Source of the DNA: Thioalkalivibrio sp. ALMg11
GTDB taxonomy: Bacteria; Pseudomonadota; Gammaproteobacteria; Ectothiorhodospirales; Ectothiorhodospiraceae
DNA length: 64,000 nt
Direction of reading: 5' to 3'
Assembly: GCF_000377905.1 (NCBI RefSeq)
Contig: NZ_KB898872.1
Span: 124,001 to 188,000 of the forward strand
Under the pieces are notes generated by a model. The model was not told the DNA's origin, did no database searches, and saw nothing but the letters and a program-made list of their open reading frames with translations. Within the stretch, counting starts at the first letter, position 1. Every line of letters begins with the position of its first letter. The translations under genes were made by a program, and so were the position numbers. Below, one piece after another: positions 40,386-49,751 of the stretch.

Positions 40386-41705
40386 CTACTCGTCGTCCGG
40401 ATTCAGGCGAGGATGCGTCTCCTCGCCCCACCACCAGACCACGGCACCGGAGGCGAACATCGCGATCACCACGAACCAGAAGCCCCAGACCACCGACCCG
40501 CCGACATGGGCCACGATGCCCAGCCCGAGGGCGCCTACCCCATAGCCAAGATCGCGCCAGAAGCGGTAAGTCCCGATCGCCGAACCGCGCCAGTTCGGAT
40601 GCGCGATGTCCGCCACTGCCGCGCTCAGGTTGGGATACAGCAGCGCCATGCCGAGACCGGTCACCGCTGCCGCGAACGACCACCACAGCACGCCCTCTCC
40701 CAGCAGCGTCAACGCCACCCCGCCGCCGCAAATCCACATGCCCCAGATGATCGGCTGCCGCCGTCCGACGTGATCCGACAGGCGGCCGGTGATGAACTGC
40801 GAGCCGCCCCAGACGAAGCCGTAGATCCCGACCACCCAGCCAATCGCCGCCAGGCTGAGCCCCTGCTGGTACAGGAATACCGGATAGAACACCCACACCA
40901 GCGCATCCACGAACTTCTCGACCAGCCCCGCCTGACTGAACGCGGCCATGCGCCGGTCGCGCCAGGACATCAGCGTGAACACCTCCCAGGTGCTGGGCGT
41001 ATCGGAGATATTCTTCGAATAACGCGGGATGGGCCCTGTGGACTGCCCGGCGGCATGCCGCGCGCCCTCGGCCTTCGCCCAGTCGAGGGTCTCGCGCACA
41101 AACAGCGCCGTCAGCACGATCGCCAGCGCGATCACTACCAGGCCAAAGATCAGCAGCCCCATGCGGGGGCCGTAGGCGGCCGCCATGTAGCCGGTCACGA
41201 TCCCCGCCACGGCAACCCCGACATAGCCGGAGAACTCGTTCATCCCCATGGTGAAGCCGCGCTCGTCGGCACGGGTGATGTCCATCTTGGCCGTCTGGGT
41301 CATCGACCAGGCCAGGCCCTGGTTCACGCCCAGCAGCACGGTCGCGGCCACGATCCAGCTCCAGGAGGGTGCGTAGAGGATCATGAACGGGATCGGAATC
41401 GCCGCCACCCAGCCAAGCATCAGCACGGTCTTGCGGCCCAGCCGCTCGGACAGGCGCCCCGCGACAAAATTGAGCGCCCCCTTCACCACGCCGAAGGCGA
41501 CCACGAACGCGGTCAGCATCATGAACGAGCCCTCGGCCACGCCGAACTCGCTCTCCGCCAGGGCCGGCACGACCGTACGCATCATTCCGATCGTCAGGCC
41601 GACAAAAAAGACCTGGATCAACTGCTGACCGAACTGCCCGAGGTTCTCCCGGATTCCATGGGTCAGGTGGGCATAGGCCTCCGCGGCCTTGTGATGGTCC
41701 GTCAT
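40386..41705 (-). CDS. MFS transporter in the persulfide operon
   Basis: A 439-aa major facilitator with twelve predicted helices. The family signature G-R-L-S-E-R-L-G-R-K-T-V-L (about residues 81-93) lies between helices 2 and 3 and is mirrored by G-R-L-S-D-H-V-G-R-R-Q-P in the second half. I start at the ATG at 41705, giving a short cytoplasmic N-terminus. It lies 22 bp after the persulfide-dioxygenase gene in the same direction, so a substrate linked to sulfur metabolism (for example export of sulfite or uptake of a sulfur compound) is plausible but unproven. Confidence 0.88.
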   Translation of the reverse strand: MTDHHKAAEAYAHLTHGIRENLGQFGQQLIQVFFVGLTIGMMRTVVPALAESEFGVAEGSFMMLTAFVVAFGVVKGALNFVAGRLSERLGRKTVLMLGWVAAIPIPFMILYAPSWSWIVAATVLLGVNQGLAWSMTQTAKMDITRADERGFTMGMNEFSGYVGVAVAGIVTGYMAAAYGPRMGLLIFGLVVIALAIVLTALFVRETLDWAKAEGARHAAGQSTGPIPRYSKNISDTPSTWEVFTLMSWRDRRMAAFSQAGLVEKFVDALVWVFYPVFLYQQGLSLAAIGWVVGIYGFVWGGSQFITGRLSDHVGRRQPIIWGMWICGGGVALTLLGEGVLWWSFAAAVTGLGMALLYPNLSAAVADIAHPNWRGSAIGTYRFWRDLGYGVGALGLGIVAHVGGSVVWGFWFVVIAMFASGAVVWWWGEETHPRLNPDDE

Positions 41706-41727
41706 GACGAGTCCCTTTTGTTGCGGA

Positions 41728-42462
41728 TCAGGCCGCGATGTTCGCGGCAACGTAGGCATCCATCCCCGAAGGACGCGGCGGGATATCTCCGGTCAGAAAT
41801 TCGACAAACGCCTCGCGGTCGCTGATCGCGAGCCCCGGGTTGAAGCGCTTTTCGAAGCCCAGGGTGGACGAGGGCTTGCCGGACAGGCCTGCGCCACAGA
41901 CGCTCCCGGCATAATGGCCCGGGTATATCTCCAGCTCGTCCGGCAGACCCAGCAGGCGTTGATGCAGGCTGTCGAACATGCGCCCTGCCATCTCGCGCTC
42001 GCGCCCGGCCAGGTCGGGCCGCCCGATGCTTCCGATAAAAAGCGTATCGCCAGTCAGCACAAACCAGGGCTGATCGCCGCGACGCTTGTCGGTCACCAGC
42101 AGACACACGCTGTCCTCGGTATGCCCCGGGGTGTGGATCACCTCGACCTCGACATTCCCGGCCGCGATACGCTCGCCATCCTCCAACGCATGGAAGTCGA
42201 ACTCGACCACCGAGCGATCCGACGCGTGGAGGCAATACTCGGCTCCGGCACGCCTTGCCAGATCACGGCCTCCGGAATAGTGGTCGGCATGGATATGCGT
42301 GTCGATCACATGAGTGATCGCGACACCCGCCTCGCGGGCCCGCTCCAGAAACCAGTCCTGGTCCCCGTCCACCACATCCACGGCAATCGCCTTCCCCAGC
42401 GATCCACAGCCGAACAGATAGGAAAGCGACGATTCCCGCGTGGGCAGCTGATGGAAAAACAT
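41728..42462 (-). CDS. MBL-fold persulfide dioxygenase-like protein
   Basis: A 244-aa metallo-beta-lactamase-fold protein of the ETHE1/persulfide-dioxygenase group, which oxidises glutathione persulfide to sulfite with one Fe(II). The metal motif T-H-I-H-A-D-H is at about residues 54-60, followed by H-T-P-G-H-T (about 110-115), F-V-L-T-G-D-T-L-F (about 134-142) and I-Y-P-G-H-Y-A-G-S-V-C-G (about 182-193). The late G-K-P-S-S-T-L-G-F-E is typical of the sulfur-linked members. It starts 38 bp after the ArsR-rhodanese gene and precedes the MFS gene. Hydroxyacylglutathione hydrolase is the alternative, but the context favours persulfide oxidation. Confidence 0.82.
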   Translation of the reverse strand: MFFHQLPTRESSLSYLFGCGSLGKAIAVDVVDGDQDWFLERAREAGVAITHVIDTHIHADHYSGGRDLARRAGAEYCLHASDRSVVEFDFHALEDGERIAAGNVEVEVIHTPGHTEDSVCLLVTDKRRGDQPWFVLTGDTLFIGSIGRPDLAGREREMAGRMFDSLHQRLLGLPDELEIYPGHYAGSVCGAGLSGKPSSTLGFEKRFNPGLAISDREAFVEFLTGDIPPRPSGMDAYVAANIAA

Positions 42463-42500: not shown

Positions 42501-43184
42501 TTAGTTGGATTCCGAGTCCTGGGTAATGGGCAGACCCTGATAGCGCCATTCGGCAACGCCGTCCTCGAACCGGGTCGCCTGGAACCCGTGCGCGGCCAGG
42601 ATCTCTACAGCCTCGCTGGCCATCAGGCAGTACGGACCACGGCAATAAGCCACCACCGGTCGGTCGGTCGGCAGCTCGCCGAGCCGATTGCGCAGCTCGC
42701 TGATGGGGATGGATCGGGCATACGGCAGATGGGCGTTCGCGTATTCCATGCCGGGACGGACATCGAGCACGATCAGGTCGCCCCGACGCGCCTGCTCCAG
42801 CAGTTCGGGGCCGGCCATCGGGGCCAGCTCGCCCGGGCCCTCGGCCATCTCGCGGGTCGCGGCCTGCAACTCGAGCAGGCGCTCCTCCGCCAGGGTGCGC
42901 AGCATCACCCAGAAATCGGCGACATGCTGATCCACCAGGCGATAGAACATATGGCGCCCTTCGCGCCGGGCCTCGACCAGCCGCGCCTGGCGCAGCTCCT
43001 TCAAGTGGGCGCTGGTCAGCTTCACGCTGAGTTCTGCATCGGCCGCCAGCTGCTCGACGCTCTTTTCGCCCTGCACCAGCACCTCGATCAACTCCAGGCG
43101 CTTCGGGCTGGCCGCGGCCCGGGCGATGCGGGCCACCTGTTCGTACAGCAAATCCTTGAGTTCACGTCCGGACACGGCGTTCAT
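42501..43184 (-). CDS. ArsR-family repressor fused to a rhodanese domain
   Basis: A 227-aa fusion. Residues 10-100 are an ArsR-type winged helix (S-P-K-R-L-E-L-I-E-V-L, then L-S-V-K-L-T-S-A-H-L-K-E-L as recognition region) without any cysteine. Residues 125-225 are a rhodanese domain with D-V-R-P-G-M-E-Y and the active-site loop C-R-G-P-Y-C. The catalytic Cys could carry a persulfide and so be the sensor. I use the ATG at 43184; ATG 43196 is also possible. The start region lies inside a 9-bp inverted repeat, a good candidate for autorepression. It leads the operon with persulfide dioxygenase and the MFS gene. Confidence 0.87.
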   Translation of the reverse strand: MNAVSGRELKDLLYEQVARIARAAASPKRLELIEVLVQGEKSVEQLAADAELSVKLTSAHLKELRQARLVEARREGRHMFYRLVDQHVADFWVMLRTLAEERLLELQAATREMAEGPGELAPMAGPELLEQARRGDLIVLDVRPGMEYANAHLPYARSIPISELRNRLGELPTDRPVVAYCRGPYCLMASEAVEILAAHGFQATRFEDGVAEWRYQGLPITQDSESN

Positions 43185-43203
43185 TCCAATATTCATTGGA
43201 ATG
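43182..43203. promoter_or_regulatory. Probable ArsR-type operator overlapping the regulator start
   Basis: CATTCCAAT-attc-ATTGGAATG is a perfect 9-bp inverted repeat with a 4-bp spacer, covering the two possible start codons of the ArsR-rhodanese gene. Its size and AT-rich symmetry are as expected for an ArsR/SmtB operator. Binding here would block the regulator's own operon. Confidence 0.6.
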
Positions 43204-43282
43204 AACGATAAATGACCCAGGCATCGGACGCAAGACCGGTGATGACCCGCATCTGGCAACGAAGGAATCCTCCCGCCGCCTA

Positions 43283-43312
43283 GGGCCCGCCGGATCGGGC
43301 CCTCCAGTTTTT
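43283..43312 (+). terminator. Terminator-like hairpin in the divergent region
   Basis: GGGCCCG-N6-CGGGCCC (43283-43302) is followed 5 nt later by TTTTT (43308-43312). It points in the plus direction, yet no plus-strand gene lies upstream before the ArsR gene on the other strand. It may insulate the SOR-like gene from upstream transcription or be part of a longer leader. Confidence 0.4.
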
Positions 43313-43319
43313 GGGTGAT

Positions 43320-43373
43320 TTGGGGGTCGCGCGAATTCCTGAGTAGATTAGTCGGGAACTTCGATTAGAAGTT
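43320..43373 (+). promoter_or_regulatory. Possible promoter and palindrome of the SOR-like gene
   Basis: TTGGGG (43320-43325) and TAGATT (43344-43349), 18 bp apart, could form a promoter. Just downstream AACTTC-GATTA-GAAGTT (43357-43373) is a perfect 6-bp inverted repeat located where a repressor would block initiation. It is unlike the ArsR-gene palindrome, so a different regulator would be needed. Confidence 0.35.
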
Positions 43374-43436
43374 GCTTACTAACTAACCGAGCATCCCGTG
43401 CCTTCGGGCACACTTCCCCTGCAACAGGAGAACGTC

Positions 43437-43886
43437 ATGAGCCAACTGATCAATAACTTCCCGGCCGACGGTGTAGTCACCATCAACCGCGTGATCCTCA
43501 AGTCGGAATACACCATCGACGACCTGCAGGAACGTGTCGCAGTCCTCTGCGAGAACGTAAAGACCTATCACTCGGATACCGGCTTCGTCGGCGGCTTTGT
43601 CGCGCTGAACTCCGGTGCCGTCTCCAATGAGGGCTCCACCATCGGCCAGGCGGTCGAGAGCCCGATGAAGGACAAGGAGGCCCTGATCATCACCTTCTGG
43701 AAGAGCTTCGACGAACACGAGGCGTCGCACCAGAGCGAGACCTTCCAGCCCCTTTTCCAGCAGGTACTGGAACTGTGCGAGAACGGAAACGAGGAGATCG
43801 CCTACGAGATGCTCTGGTCCGGCGCAGCCTACGATCCAGAGCAGGCCCGGGCTGCCCGCGAGGCGAAGGAGACCCACGCGGCCTGA
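43437..43886 (+). CDS. Small sulfur oxygenase reductase-like protein, 149 aa
   Basis: The ATG at 43437 follows ACAGGAG. The product resembles the first half of sulfur oxygenase reductase (SOR), a mononuclear-iron enzyme that disproportionates sulfur with oxygen. V-T-I-N-R (13-18) matches the SOR start, T-G-F-V-G-G-F (48-54) matches P-G-F-V-G-F, and T-F-W-K-S-F-D-E-H-E-A-S-H (86-98) matches T-F-W-K-D-W-K-D-H-E-E-M-H. By this alignment the iron ligands H86, H90 and E114 of Acidianus SOR correspond to H94, H98 and E120, and the essential Cys31 to C38. SOR is about 310 aa with two such domains, so this is a single-domain form. The alternative is a general antibiotic-biosynthesis-monooxygenase fold protein. 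Divergent from the persulfide operon. Confidence 0.68.
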   Translation: MSQLINNFPADGVVTINRVILKSEYTIDDLQERVAVLCENVKTYHSDTGFVGGFVALNSGAVSNEGSTIGQAVESPMKDKEALIITFWKSFDEHEASHQSETFQPLFQQVLELCENGNEEIAYEMLWSGAAYDPEQARAAREAKETHAA

Positions 43887-43932
43887 GGGCCGTCATTCCG
43901 GAACGATCGTCACTCCAACGACTGTACCCATC

Positions 43933-43959
43933 GCCGGGGCCTTGCGCCCCGGCTTTTTC
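43933..43959 (+). terminator. Rho-independent terminator after the SOR-like gene
   Basis: GCCGGGGC-cttgc-GCCCCGGC (43933-43953, stem 8 bp) is followed by TTTTT. It lies 46 bp after the stop and marks the SOR-like gene as a single-gene transcript; the Mrp operon approaches from the other side. Confidence 0.88.
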
Positions 43960-44027
43960 GTGTCTGGCATACCGTCATGTCTCCCCTACCCGGATGATCG
44001 GCCGTCAGATCGCGGGCGCCGGCGGGG

Positions 44028-44426
44028 TCAAGAACGCGGGGCGTCGTCGTCCTGCTTCGCGTCCTGCATCTCCGGGGGCGAGGCCAGGGTGTGATTCTCC
44101 TCGTCGTAGCGGCCCTTCAGCTCGTCGGTCTTGGTGTGCTCCCACAGCGGCACCCCGACAAAGTAGCCAGCGCGCCCGATCGCGTGCGCAGCCACCGGTG
44201 CGGTGAGCAGCAGGAAGCCGATCACCGCCACCGCGCGGGTGGTGACCCCGCCGTCGCCAAAGTAGACGGCCACGCCGACCATCATCAGGCCCGCCCCCAG
44301 CACACCGGCCTTGGTGGTGGCATGCAGGCGCATCGGCAGATCGGGCATACGCACCAGGCCCAGTGCCGCGACCACCATGAACGCGGCCCCGACGACCAGG
44401 AGCAACCCCGTGAAAAACTCAATCAT
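44028..44426 (-). CDS. mrpG: Mrp Na+/H+ antiporter subunit G
   Basis: A 132-aa subunit with three membrane helices and an acidic cytoplasmic tail. L-V-R-M-P-D-L-P-M-R-L-H-A-T-T-K is the diagnostic MnhG/PhaG segment (about residues 25-40). I start at ATG 44426, eight bases inside mrpF. It is the last gene of the operon. The C-terminal 40-residue hydrophilic extension (K-T-D-E-L-K-G-R-Y) is longer than in Bacillus MrpG. Confidence 0.94.
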   Translation of the reverse strand: MIEFFTGLLLVVGAAFMVVAALGLVRMPDLPMRLHATTKAGVLGAGLMMVGVAVYFGDGGVTTRAVAVIGFLLLTAPVAAHAIGRAGYFVGVPLWEHTKTDELKGRYDEENHTLASPPEMQDAKQDDDAPRS

Positions 44427-44694
44427 CGTCCCGATGCCCCCCTTTCTCCAGGTAACGGGCAAAGCCCACTGCGGCAAGGAACGCGGTCAGCGCCAGAACC
44501 ATGGCCACGTCGATGAACGGGGTGCGGCCACTGGAGATCACGTAGACCGCAATGAAGCCGATGGTCAACGACGCAATCAACTCCAGCGCCACAACGCGAT
44601 CCGGCAGCGTCGGCCCCAGGTACAGCCGCCAGAACGCCAGCACCAGGGCCAGGCTCAGCAATGCGTTGGAAGCAATAATAGCGATATCGAACAT
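44419..44694 (-). CDS. mrpF: Mrp Na+/H+ antiporter subunit F
   Basis: A 91-aa subunit with three membrane helices. Y-L-G-P-T-L-P-D-R-V-V-A-L-E-L (about residues 25-39) and F-I-D-V-A-M-V-L-A-L (about 60-69) are the conserved MnhF features, the Asp residues being important for ion transport in the family. It overlaps mrpG and follows mrpE by 15 bp. Confidence 0.94.
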   Translation of the reverse strand: MFDIAIIASNALLSLALVLAFWRLYLGPTLPDRVVALELIASLTIGFIAVYVISSGRTPFIDVAMVLALTAFLAAVGFARYLEKGGHRDDD

Positions 44695-44709
44695 CGGACC
44701 TCCCCGCGC

Positions 44710-45183
44710 CTAGCGCAGGACCTCCAGGGCGCGGTGTTCCAGGTACTTGATCGAGCGGATCACCGCATCCCGGTCCTCCAGGTACATCACGTGGATATAC
44801 AGCACCTTCTTGTCGGTGGAGACGTCCAGGCTTAGCGTCCCCGGCGTCAACGAGATCAGATTGGCGACGATGGTGATCTCGCCATCGGTCTTCGCATCCA
44901 GCGGGAAGGCAATCACACCCGGCACCATGTGGTGGGTCGGGGTCATCACATCGTAGGCCACCTTCAGGTTCGACAGGAACAGTTCCCACAGGAAGAAGCC
45001 GATAAACCCGATGAATTTCGGCACCCGCCGCGCGTAGCTGGAAAACCCCGGCTTGTCGCGCAGGGCAAATGCCAGCAGCACGTAGCCAAGGAAGAACCCG
45101 ACCAACAGATTACCGGTGGTAAACGTCCCGGTCAGGAAGACCCAGATCAGGGCCAGCGCGATGTTCCAGGTCAGCGCGATCAT
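44710..45183 (-). CDS. mrpE: Mrp Na+/H+ antiporter subunit E
   Basis: A 157-aa subunit with two or three N-terminal membrane helices and a C-terminal domain with N-L-I-S-L-T-P-G-T-L-S-L-D-V (about residues 105-118) and I-H-V-M-Y-L. This matches MnhE/PhaE. The reading frame continues upstream out of register with mrpD to 46620, but only the stretch from ATG 45183, which overlaps the mrpD stop (ATGA), is the gene. Confidence 0.94.
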   Translation of the reverse strand: MIALTWNIALALIWVFLTGTFTTGNLLVGFFLGYVLLAFALRDKPGFSSYARRVPKFIGFIGFFLWELFLSNLKVAYDVMTPTHHMVPGVIAFPLDAKTDGEITIVANLISLTPGTLSLDVSTDKKVLYIHVMYLEDRDAVIRSIKYLEHRALEVLR

Positions 45184-46685
45184 TGGCGGGCCTCCCCGAG
45201 TACCGCCTCGATGTACCGCGACGGATCCAGCAACTGCTCGGCGGACATGGCCGCCATCTGATAGATGGGCTCGCCGTAGAGACCGATGGCCACGGTCATC
45301 AGGGCCAGCATGATCACCGGGATCCACATCCAGATCATCGGGCCGGAGGTGACATCGTGCGTCTGGCCCTCGACCCCTTCGGGCTGCGCCTTCCAGAACA
45401 CCTCGGCCCAGATCTTGATCATCGAGTACAGCGTCAGCAACCCGACCACCAGCGCGACCGCCACCACCCAGTAAGCCTCGGCCTCGATACCCGCACGGAT
45501 GATGATGAACTTGGCAAAGAAACCGGACAGCGGCGGCAGCCCTGCCAGCGACAAGGCCGGGATCAGGAACAGCACACCCAGCATCGGATGCGTGCGGTAG
45601 ATCCCGCCCATCAGCTTCAGCTCGTGGGTGCCCTTCATCACGAACGTGATCCCGCTGATCAGGAACAGATTCGCCTTCACGATGATGTGATGCATGATGT
45701 AGAACACCCCGCCCACCAGGGCCAGCGGCGTGAACAGCGCCAGACCCATGATCATGTAGCCGATCTGGCTGATGATGTGGAACGACAGGATGCGCCGGAA
45801 TTCGTAATGCGCGGCCGCCCCGAGCACGCCGGTCAGCATGGTCGCCGCCGCCACCCACAGCAGGATCTCGTGGGTGTAATCGACTTCCTGATTGAAGATC
45901 AGCGTGAACACGCGGTACAGCGCGTACACCCCGACCTTGGTCAGCAACGCCGCGAACAGCGCGGAGACCGCCACCTTCGGCGTGTGGTAGGACGCCGGCA
46001 ACCAGAAGAAGAACGGGAACGCCGCCGCCTTCACCCCGAACGCGACCAGGTACAGCATCGCGATCACGGTCACCAGACCGGTGTCCTCGACGGTGGACAG
46101 CTTGTCGGCGATATCCGCCATGTTCAGGGTGCCGGTCAGCCCGTAGGTCAGGCCGATCGCCGTGAGGAAGATCATCGACGACAGCAGGTTCAGGGTGACG
46201 TACTTGATCGCCCCTTCCATCTGCGCGCGTTCGCCACCCAGGATCAGCAGCGCGAACGAGGCGACCAGCATCACCTCGAACCACACGTAGAGGTTGAAGA
46301 TGTCGCCGGTGAGGAACGCGCCGTTCACCCCTGCCAGCAGCAAGTGCAGCAGCGGGTAGTAACCGAACTTCTCCGACATCTTGCCAATGCCGGACAGCGA
46401 GTAGATCGCCGTGGCGAAGCCGATGATGCCGGTCAGCAAGACCATGATCGCCGCCAGCATGTCGGAGACCAGCACGATGCCGAACGGGGCGGGCCAGGTG
46501 CCCATCTCCATCACCACGTGCCCGTGTTCCCAGGTATCCGCCAGCAGCCAGATGCTCACGGCCAGCATCAATCCGGTACCAAGCACGCCGAGGGCGCGCT
46601 GGGCGAAGTGCGAACGCCACAGCATCACCGACAGCGCACCGACCAGCAGCGGCACGATGATCGGGAGGGCCACGGACATCATCAT
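45180..46685 (-). CDS. mrpD: Mrp Na+/H+ antiporter subunit D
   Basis: A 501-aa subunit homologous to the NuoN/NuoM proton-channel subunits of complex I, with about fourteen helices. It keeps the E-V-M (W-F-E-V-M-L) glutamate of helix 5 and the Lys of [12 protein letters not shown] and A-L-L-T-K-V-G-V-Y. Three successive ATGs (46685, 46682, 46679) could serve as start; the first overlaps the mrpC stop. Subunits A and D form the ion-translocating pair of the complex. Confidence 0.95.
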
Positions 46686-47029
46686 CGATCGGTGTCCTTC
46701 ATCTGGTCCATGTCATCGGCCTGCACCACCTCGTAGGCGCGGTGGATCAGCACCACGGCAAACGCCAGCACCCCGAAACCGATCACGATCGCAGTCAGCA
46801 CCACTGCCTGCGCCAGGGGGTCGGCGGCGACCCCCTCGGGCACCGTATCCCCGGGCGAGATCAGTGGCGGCGCACCCGACGTCATACCGGCGACGGTAAA
46901 GATCAGCAGGTTGGCGGCATTCGACAGCAGCACCAGCCCGATCACCAGCTTCACGATCGAGCGGCGCAGCATCATGTAGATGGCCGCGGCATAGAGACCG
47001 CCGACCACGAAGGCCATGACGACTTCCAT
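46682..47029 (-). CDS. mrpC: Mrp Na+/H+ antiporter subunit C
   Basis: A 115-aa NuoK-like subunit with three membrane helices. [14 protein letters not shown] (about residues 28-41) and [15 protein letters not shown] (about 70-84) are hallmarks of MnhC. The ATG at 47029 shares a base with the mrpB stop (TAATG). The frame is open further upstream without similarity. Confidence 0.94.
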
Positions 47030-47454
47030 TAGTCCTCCGCCTCCGCGAGGTTGAGCATGATGGTCAGCACCGAGCCAATGACCACCAGGTACACCCCGAT
47101 ATCGAAGATCAGCACGGTCGAGAGCTTCATCTCGCCGAAGATCGGCGCAGTGAACTCCCACCACTGGGCGGTAAAGAAGGCCTGCCCGCGAAATACGCCG
47201 GGAATGGCACTGATCACCGCCAGCACCATGCCGGCACCCAGCAGATCACGCGGGTCCACCCGCAGCACCTTGCGTGCCGACTCGGTATCCATCGAAAACA
47301 GGTACAGCAGGATCGCGGCGGCCGCGACCAGCCCACCAATGAAACCGCCGCCCGGCTCGTCGTGCCCGCGCAACAGCAGGAACACGGAAAACAGCAACAG
47401 CAGCGGCAGCAGGAAATGTCCCGTGGTGCGCAGGATCAGGGAATGCATGTTCAT
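47029..47454 (-). CDS. mrpB: Mrp Na+/H+ antiporter subunit B
   Basis: A 141-aa subunit with four membrane helices and the [13 protein letters not shown] segment (about residues 30-42) that defines Mnh[12 protein letters not shown] near the C-terminus is also typical. It overlaps mrpA (ATGA) and mrpC (TAATG). Confidence 0.95.
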
Positions 47455-49751
47455 CGGCGGTCCTCCGCGCGGAAACGAAGCATCGCGTACACCCCGATCG
47501 CCGCCAGCGCCAGCACGAAGATTTCGCCCAGGGTATCCAGTGCACGGAAGTCGACCAGCACCACGTTAACGATGTTGCGGCCGTAACCGGACGGCACCGA
47601 CTCGTCGATGAAGTACTGCGAGATGGAGTCGAACAACCGCGCATCCACGGTGCTCAGGATCAGCAGCGTGATCATGCCGCCCATCACCAGCGCGATCCCG
47701 GCGTCACGCAGGCGCAGCGCGGTGGACGACAGGTTCAGGAAACCCGGCAGCCGGAACAGCACCAGCACCAGCAGGATCACGGTCAGGGTTTCGACCAGCA
47801 CCTGGGTGATGCCGACGTCCGCCGCACTGTAGAGCACGTAGACCAGCGCCACGGTGAAGCCCAGCGAGCCCAGGGCGGCCACCGCACCCAGCCGCGAGTG
47901 GGTCAGAACCGCGAACAGCGCCGAGGCCACCAGGACCGCCAGGATGGCGATCTCGTGGATCTGGAGGCCCTCGAAGTTCAGCGACCCGACCCCGACCTCG
48001 AACAGCTGGGCGGTGACCCCGACCAGAGCCGCGGTCACCACGACGATCACGATCACGTAATAGCGCAGATAGCCGTTCTGCAGCACCCGGGTCTGCCACT
48101 CGGACAGCCACACCAGGCCGTCCATCATCTTGAAATAGCCTTTCTCCGGGCCGTATTCGGCGGCGCGATCGACCCAGGCCAGCGCGCGGCGCGCCTGTTC
48201 CCAGCGCCAGTAGAGAACCCCACCGGCCAACAGGCTGAAGGCGGAGATCGCCAGCGGCCAGTTCAGGCCGTGCCACAGTGACAGATAGCCGTCGACCGGC
48301 GCGCCCTGCACGCTGGCCGCGGCCGCGTTGATCAGGCCCTCGTCGGCCAGGCCCGGCCCCAGGCCAAAGATCAGGCCCAGGCTGGCGAGCACCGCGGGAC
48401 CGGCCAGCATCGCCACCGGGGCGTCGTGCTGCGGGGTCTTGGGTGTTTCCACCTTCGGCCCGAACCACGGCCGGATGCCGACGATCGCGGCGACCGCCAC
48501 CCCGAGGATCGCGGTCAGCACCGCCAGCAGGGTCAGGATGCCGACCAGCCCCGGAGCCCCAAGCACCGACTCCAGCATCAGCTCCTTGGCGACGAAGCCG
48601 AACAGCGGGATCACGCCCCCCAGCGACAACGCCGCGAGGATCGTGAATGCCGCCGTCACTGGCAGTGCGCTGCGCAGCCCGCCGGTCTGCAGGAAGTCCT
48701 TGGCCCCGGCCTCGTGATCCAGGATGCCCGCGACCATGAACAGCGCGCCCTTGTACAGGGAATGTGCCAGCAGGAAGGCCATCGCCGCCATCAGCGCGGT
48801 CTCGGTGCCGATACCGATCAACATGGTGAGGGTGCCCAGCGCCATCACCGTGGAATACGCCAGCACCTTTTTCACGCCCGTGGAGCGGTAGGCCAGGAAC
48901 ACACCCGTGAACATGGTCACCGAGCCGACCAACACCAGCGTGGTGAACCAGACATCCGTGCCACCGAGCGAGGGATTCAGGCGCGCCAGCAGGTAGATGC
49001 CGGCCTTCACCATGGTCGCCGAGTGCAGGTAGGCGGAGACTGGCGTCGGCGCCGCCATCGCGCGCGGTAGCCAGAAGTGGAACGGAACCTGCGCCGACTT
49101 CGTGAAGGCCCCGAGCAGGATCAGGAACAACAGCGGCAGATACAGCGCATGCTCGCGCACCACGTCGCCGTTGGAGAGAATCTCGGAGATCTCGTAGGAG
49201 CCGCCGGCCATCGCCAGCATGATGATGCCGGCGAGCATTGCCAGGCCGCCGCCGACGGTTACGAACAGCCCCTGCAGCGCGTACTTGCGGGCATCCGCGT
49301 TCTCGTGGTTGTAGCCGATCAGCAGGTAGGACGTGATGCTGGTCAGCTCCCAGAACACGAACATCGCGATCAGGTTATCCGCCAGAACCAGCCCGAGCAT
49401 GGAGCCCATGAAGGCCAGCAGGATCACGTAGAAGCGCCCGAGGTCGCGATCCTTCTCGAGATAGCGCCCGGCGTAGGTGACGATGAAGAAGCCGATGCCC
49501 GAGATCAGCAGCGCGAACAGCAGCGACAGGCCGTCCACCAGGAACGAGAGCTGGATATCCAGCCCCGGCAGCCAGGGCCAGGCCAGCACGATGGATTCGC
49601 CGCTGGAAACCGCCGGCAGGAAGCTCAGGAAATAGACGAACAGCCCGGCCGGCAACAGGCCCAGCACCCAGCCGCTTCCGCGGCCGGTCAGGCGGTGGAT
49701 CGTGGGCGCAAACGCCGCCACCAGGAACGTTGACAGAATTGCGTACAGCAT
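47451..49751 (-). CDS. mrpA: Mrp Na+/H+ antiporter subunit A
   Basis: A 766-aa NuoL-like subunit with about twenty helices, first gene of mrpABCDEFG. The complex exchanges Na+ (or K+) for protons and is central to pH and sodium homeostasis in alkaliphiles. [15 protein letters not shown] (about residues 133-147) holds the helix 5 glutamate, and [15 protein letters not shown] (about 218-232) the helix 7 lysine. The C-terminal 230 residues are the MrpA-specific extension ([10 protein letters not shown] near the end). The 255 bp upstream contain its promoter; I see no clear regulatory site. Confidence 0.95.

Follow-up and report, generated by a model that had tools for sequence, protein, structure and literature searches.

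The window analysed here, a stretch of 64,000 nucleotides from Thioalkalivibrio sp. ALMg11 (contig NZ_KB898872.1), carries at 43437..43886 on the plus strand a gene for a protein of 149 residues (P0001; 149 codons and a stop) that is, from its alignments, very probably a single-domain homologue of sulfur oxygenase reductase (SOR) with the catalytic site retained. P0001 belongs to a conserved family of half-size SOR-like proteins that have the complete catalytic set, are tied to dissimilatory sulfur oxidation and are carried by phages. The finding is real, and it is larger than the single locus described in a first-pass annotation of this DNA, the family being found also inside a dsr cluster and on phage contigs.

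The first-pass annotation had placed four active-site residues in P0001, C38, H94, H98 and E120, as well as a T-F-W-K...H-E-x-x-H block. The translation contains all four, the block in the form T86-F-W-K and H94-E-A-S-H98, and a second cysteine, C114. The protein is also half the size of SOR, as had been claimed; the full-length SOR of the same genome (L139) has 311 residues. By alignment, C38, H94, H98 and E120 correspond to Cys31, His86, His90 and Glu114 of SOR (numbering after PMC7398979, one residue lower than in L139). According to the available portion of PMC7398979, His86, His90 and Glu114 are the SOR iron ligands and Cys31 is essential, alanine in place of any of these four residues leaving no activity; the cysteines of SOR lie about 9.5-13 A from the metal.

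We then compared the homologues. C38, H94, H98, C114, E119 and E120 were conserved at 100% in 110 distinct proteins of the window's sub-group (family 1), the window's own included. Proteins of a second sub-group (family 2) are about 130 residues long and 33-42% identical to family 1. When 15 of them were added to the alignment (28 rows), C38, H94, E95, H98, E120 and Y123 were invariant and C114 nearly so; C38, H94, H98 and E120 are likewise present in the five others of the 20 family-2 proteins that were retrieved. A viral set, reduced from 32 to 28 distinct proteins by the removal of four duplicates, had H94, E95, H98, E120, Y123 and W127 in 28 of 28, and C38 in 27 of the 27 that cover that part, one row being without it. 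As regards sampling, the scan of named genomes used short peptides, some of which hold C38, H94 or C114 (any single peptide being sufficient), and one of the two patterns of the viral scan holds C38 and the other T86 and W88; H98 and E120 are in none of these peptides or patterns, and the whole-protein searches are free of such bias. The refuting outcome named in the first-pass annotation, an unrelated monooxygenase family with the cysteine and the H-x3-H motif unconserved in close homologues, was looked for and not found: the residues were invariant in all three sub-groups, and in joint alignments C38, H94, H98 and E120 lay on invariant SOR residues. A broken or truncated SOR gene was likewise rejected, the 110 distinct proteins all being 147-153 residues long (with start codons picked as closest to that of the window gene) and the 311-residue SOR being a separate gene of the genome.

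Joint MAFFT alignments of 60 family proteins with 12 full-length SORs put all four residues on invariant SOR columns in 4 of 4 modes, with the three iron ligands aligned in 60 of 60 family rows and 12 of 12 SOR rows. Eleven positions (N17, C38, F50, G60, T86, W88, H94, E95, H98, E120 and Y123) matched identical invariant columns of SOR in the four modes, and these matches persisted in all modes after 27 antibiotic biosynthesis monooxygenase (ABM) proteins of related genomes had been added as controls (L230 and L241, which were in the wrong frame, were dropped). Of the 102 shared columns, the family is invariant at 21 and SOR at 31; the two sets overlap at 16, 11 of them with the same letter, and the hypergeometric probability of such an overlap is 1.3e-6 if columns are assumed to be independent. 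None of the controls had C38 in any mode, E120 was present in 0 or 1 and H98 in 2, while H94 was found in 2 in three modes and in 18 in the fourth, where a common ABM histidine lands there. Combinations of at least two of the four residues were absent from the controls in three modes and seen in one control in the fourth. Other columns were shared by the controls, namely F50 (17), W88 (21) and Y123 (6-15).

The profile search against SOR structures that the first-pass annotation had proposed gave a consistent result. The first ten PDB matches of the family profile were all SOR (best E=0.0012), followed by GlnK (0.24) and IsdI (0.3), and SOR 6m35 was the top PDB sequence match of P0001 alone (E=0.1). 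Profile-profile comparisons of the family with the 12 SORs, run as single comparisons, yielded E=1.9e-5 and 3.4e-5. Family profile A4 scored 41.1 with the N-terminal half of SOR and 11.4 with the C-terminal half, and profile A5 scored 38.1 and 10.2, the maximum for 60 column-shuffled versions of the N-half against A5 being 17.8. A chance resemblance to SOR was rejected on the residue invariance, the shuffle controls, the joint alignments and the shared invariant columns. P0001 is below the curated thresholds of both PF07682 (E=0.0039, 16.5 bits, cut-off 25) and NCBIfam NF047630 (E=1.7e-4, score 20.7, cut-off 400); the full-length L139 also falls below the latter (281.5) and clears the cut-off of PF07682. 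A structure prediction made for the monomer (pLDDT 89.3, pTM 0.79) had the order beta-alpha-beta-beta-alpha-beta of a dimeric alpha+beta barrel fold; C38 sits on the first helix, the histidines H94 and H98 share a different helix, and E120 is on the last strand.

In whole-protein searches, 34 of the 58 near relatives of the window genome had the half-size gene, and 73 of the 369 class genomes had the family (both sub-groups, E <= 0.001). One weak partial match (G323) was dropped, leaving 72 carriers, and the partial copies of G103 and G231 were kept in family 1; 52 carriers have family 1, 25 have family 2 and five have both. Family 1 is 68-100% identical across the class. A draw from the phylum contained the gene in eight of 299 genomes, the window's own counted, five of the eight being outside the class. 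These five, genomes of 3.8-5.9 Mb, have the window's sub-group, at loci that include L245 and L246. Three genomes of 1.0-1.1 Mb (G177, G289 and G384) retain both family 1 and dsrA; the stretch from G177 has 31% GC, a value that would fit a reduced symbiont. A plasmid collection searched with P0001 at E 1e-5 gave zero matches, and a plasmid-borne trait was rejected on this result. From the scan of named genomes, which gave 397 encoding stretches, 80 family-1 loci were kept (Thioalkalivibrio, Thiobacillus, Sedimenticola, Thiohalophilus, Halochromatium, Thiohalomonas and metagenome-assembled genomes), and the neighbourhood counts below rest on these 80.

By gene content the carriers are linked to sulfur oxidation. 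With self-chosen thresholds (dsrA, E <= 1e-30; soxB, E <= 1e-100), dsrA or soxB was detected in 71 of the 72 carriers versus 164 of the 369 class genomes overall, and dsrA in 62 of 72 versus 118 of 369, counts in which related genomes are not independent, so that Fisher P values computed from them do not measure how probable a function is; 56 genomes have dsrA without the family. At L179 a family-2 gene (L179:6463-6882) lies inside the dsr cluster itself, as an additional gene after dsrP and before dsrN; the cluster reads dsrA-B-E-F-C-M-K-L-J-O-P-[gene]-dsrN-dsrR. Of these, dsrA was named by model match and the others by reading translations, and a dsrH frame would fall under the 110-residue listing limit. 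Translations read in the same way place DsrC/TusE-like and SoeA/SoeBC-like genes directly against the family gene at L180, and DsrE-like and Sqr-like genes near it at L181. Of the 80 named loci, within 3 kb of the gene, 5 have sat just downstream, 2 have a TsuA/YeeE-like gene and 4 a rhodanese-like gene. In 24 of the 80, of Thiobacillus type, a small S24/LexA-like gene (named by eye; for example L076:7468-7830) lies about 130-180 bases upstream.

The family also occurs in phages. Thirty-two IMG/VR contigs (L182-L213) encode proteins of family-2 type, rather than of the window's sub-group. The fetched stretches of three of these contigs contain genes for a baseplate wedge protein, a tail protein and a DnaB-like helicase, with homologues of these markers in 9 of the 32 stretches, so that the gene is encoded on phage contigs among phage genes; for the remaining contigs, phage status is IMG/VR's own classing. 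Near the viral copies were genes for IscA-like proteins (14 of 32), NifU-like/IscU proteins (4) and ring-hydroxylating oxygenases (9); DsrC was found in 3 of the fetched stretches and in 5 of 32 when whole records were considered, and DsrC, IscU and IscA were all missing from 15 of the 32 stretches. A tree built from 73 proteins intermingles the viral copies with cellular family 2; it needs at least two label changes, whose direction it does not tell. A PHROG search with five queries and a GenBank phage search with two queries gave no match.

Taken together, the SOR residue set in a single domain and the occurrence in operons and viruses make the half-size protein look like an overlooked enzyme of sulfur oxidation. 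We propose, as the best reading and at about even odds, that it is a homodimeric iron enzyme oxidizing cysteine-bound sulfane sulfur. In the cytoplasm, two copies would pair into a barrel such as SOR makes from the two halves of a single chain, and each subunit would hold one mononuclear non-haem iron on H94, H98 and E120. Iron binding is probable. C38, on the first helix, would become persulfidated with sulfane sulfur donated by TusA, DsrC, a rhodanese or a low-molecular-weight persulfide, and O2 activated at the iron would oxidize the C38-bound sulfur towards sulfite. The 24-subunit hollow sphere is not expected to form because the second half and the chimney region of SOR are absent, and the active site would therefore be accessible to carrier-bound sulfur, not to elemental sulfur in bulk. 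An O2-dependent oxidation of carrier-bound sulfane sulfur is an activity that we predict with about even confidence, the O2 dependence being uncertain. Somewhat more speculatively, such proteins may be unrecognized single-domain SOR-type iron enzymes, like SOR before its fusion, that provide a widespread cytoplasmic step of sulfane-sulfur oxidation in proteobacteria with Dsr or Sox, kept even in genomes of 1.0-1.1 Mb, apparently exchanged between phage and host more than once, and borne by phages as an auxiliary gene that the catalogues have missed.

Several observations qualify this reading. The main doubt concerns O2, because the family occurs in anaerobic lineages. The first-pass annotation had put a compact SOR-like enzyme beside a persulfide operon; its interpretation was supported, and the operon as a general partner of the family was rejected, because the ArsR-rhodanese gene lies within 3 kb of the family gene in 12 of the 80 named loci, all Thioalkalivibrio, with the persulfide-dioxygenase-like gene in six of those 12. 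In the comparison with SOR, hhalign aligned both histidines but not the glutamate. The profile of the ABM proteins itself scored 36.1 with the N-half and 34.1 with the C-half of SOR, and the 27 ABM proteins scored 33.6 and 30.4 with family profiles A4 and A5, respectively. As the ABM profile comes so near to the family's 41.1 on the N-half, the margin is modest, and by profile scores the family is not clearly nearer to SOR than are the ABM proteins; the half-size family, SOR and ABM thus belong to one superfamily. The fold check proposed in the first-pass annotation ended similarly, in that the dimeric alpha+beta barrel was recovered in the model but its specificity for SOR was not: the best fold matches were SnoaB, RslO4 and putative ABM proteins, generic barrel proteins matching equally well or better, and the predicted fold does not single out SOR. 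Since neither fold nor profile margin discriminates, the case for SOR kinship rests on the catalytic residues.

A rather unlikely alternative is that the protein is a sulfane-sulfur carrier, transferase or reductase in which the cysteine and iron site, without using O2, would hold persulfide sulfur and pass it on (for instance from TusA/DsrE to DsrC) or reduce or disproportionate it. Family carriers include lineages of anaerobic or denitrifying lifestyle, which would suit such a role, as would the position inside the dsr cluster, the second and nearly invariant cysteine C114, and the company of DsrC, NifU-like/IscU and IscA genes on phages, whose products deal with sulfur and FeS clusters. Against it, none of the proteins examined has lost any of the three SOR iron ligands, which fits an iron active site and which a simple carrier would not need. 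A generic protein of ABM type in which the histidines serve another role, whether a cofactor-free oxygenase, a cyclase or a haem-degrading protein, is improbable. The fold matches, the near-equal ABM profile scores, the common columns F50, W88 and Y123 and the presence of IsdI, behind GlnK, among the matches that follow SOR are consistent with it, but no more than one of the 27 ABM proteins combines at least two of the four residues, the match of P0001 to PF03992 is below the gathering cut-off (13.8 versus 23.1 bits), and the distribution is tied to genomes with dsrA or soxB. That the half-size protein is a helper or regulator working with full-length SOR would fit the presence of L139 in the window genome but is very improbable and largely refuted, because among the 58 relatives, 34 with the half-size gene and 13 with full SOR, 23 of the 34 hold the half-size gene without a full-SOR match. 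In the portion of PMC6382920 available, ARh1, ALEN2 and ALMg11 are the only three Thioalkalivibrio strains, of those studied, reported to have SOR. Some relatives have a second, divergent type of full-length SOR-like protein (L147, L148 and L149), which shares 33-35% identity with L139 and keeps the active-site residues.

Returning to the proposed iron enzyme, its closest known counterpart is SOR (PF07682, NF047630; PDB 6m35, 2cb2), with which it shares the iron ligands and essential cysteine at aligned positions, the eleven identical invariant columns, the dimeric alpha+beta barrel fold and sulfur-oxidizing hosts. It differs in having one domain of 149 or about 130 residues, whereas SOR has about 310 residues in two fused barrel halves, the second without counterpart in the half-size family, whose profile matches the N-half only; P0001 is identical at 27 of 125 positions to the N-half of its own genome's SOR and lies below the curated cut-offs. 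ABM (PF03992), SnoaB and IsdG/IsdI are alike in the fold and in the GF, W and Y motif positions, but the Cys-His-His-Glu set is absent from the 27 controls as a set. ETHE1-type persulfide dioxygenases have a metallo-beta-lactamase fold unrelated to that of the half-size protein, and a protein of that fold is encoded beside the window gene. Their chemistry resembles the one proposed here, an iron enzyme converting persulfide to sulfite in the part of PMC6060420 available.

Phage sulfur auxiliary genes named in the accessible text of PMC8190135 are dsrA, dsrC/tusE, soxC and soxD, with NifU, IscA and TusA described as common on sulfur phages. The half-size gene resembles them in lying on phage contigs, some with DsrC, NifU-like and IscA genes, but it is not named among the phage genes in the accessible text of PMC8190135 or PMC4164917. 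Inventories of sulfur oxidation list Sox, Dsr, Hdr, SOR and others, and the half-size SOR is not among them in the portions available (PMC6382920, PMC6397845). No description of a single-domain SOR homologue was found among the papers listed in a literature search judged by title and start of abstract, a search with most subscription journals outside it that does not establish absence from print. The active-site states and substrate paths of SOR are described as still disputed in the available portion of PMC7398979. If the half-size protein oxidizes carrier-bound sulfur, it would be an additional iron enzyme of the cytoplasmic pathway, a small and tractable model for SOR, a candidate for its pre-fusion state and the product of a further auxiliary gene through which sulfur oxidation may be steered by phages. 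The small size, about 150 residues, and the invariance of the candidate active-site residues open the idea to direct testing.

The window gene is surrounded by the following features.

43426..43430, plus strand: Shine-Dalgarno-like AGGAG, read directly, with a similar block in the genus alignment.
43398..43411, plus strand: 5'-leader hairpin GTGCC-TTCG-GGCAC, found by eye just 5' of the ribosome-binding site.
43338..43373, no strand assigned: two adjacent inverted-repeat-like elements upstream, found by eye.
43933..43953, plus strand: intrinsic terminator from a terminator scan, an 8-pair stem followed by a T run.
42501..43196, minus strand: divergent neighbour, an ArsR-family regulator with a rhodanese-like part, found in the 12 of 80 named loci given above.
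41728..42462, minus strand: metallo-beta-lactamase-fold, persulfide-dioxygenase-like protein, its names resting on matches below curated cut-offs.
40386..41759, minus strand: MFS transporter, in 12 of 80 named loci, its families below curated cut-offs.

Both the divergent ArsR-rhodanese gene and the metallo-beta-lactamase-fold gene were present as first described. The regulator part of the former is over the NCBIfam cut-off for the ArsR/SmtB type, and its rhodanese part matches MoeZ and TsoB below cut-off; the latter has sub-cut-off matches to GloB and to the sulfur dioxygenase Blh, and was found at six Thioalkalivibrio loci, a seventh match (L131) having 29% identity. A promoter and a terminator of the gene's own had also been claimed. 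The terminator is confirmed, as one of two terminator-like sites in 43100-44000, versus 0.7 in shuffles; a sigma-70 promoter was rejected, the promoter scan of the locus giving 0 sigma-70-like sites. A sequence block upstream of the gene is kept within the genus (in the Thioalkalivibrio alignment the L002 row, entered in the wrong orientation, was disregarded, and each of the pairs L003/L059 and L004/L060 is one locus counted twice). The upstream elements consist of an imperfect repeat (43338-43356) and AACTTC-N5-GAAGTT (43357-43373), largely kept in the aligned Thioalkalivibrio loci, and are possibly an operator; the outer pair of the leader hairpin, by eye, is G...C in the window and A...T in L067 and L070. 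The region 43338-43411 as a whole could possibly combine a putative operator with an RNA control element. Downstream, a minus-strand cluster (44028-49751) reads by eye as an Mrp-type Na+/H+ antiporter.
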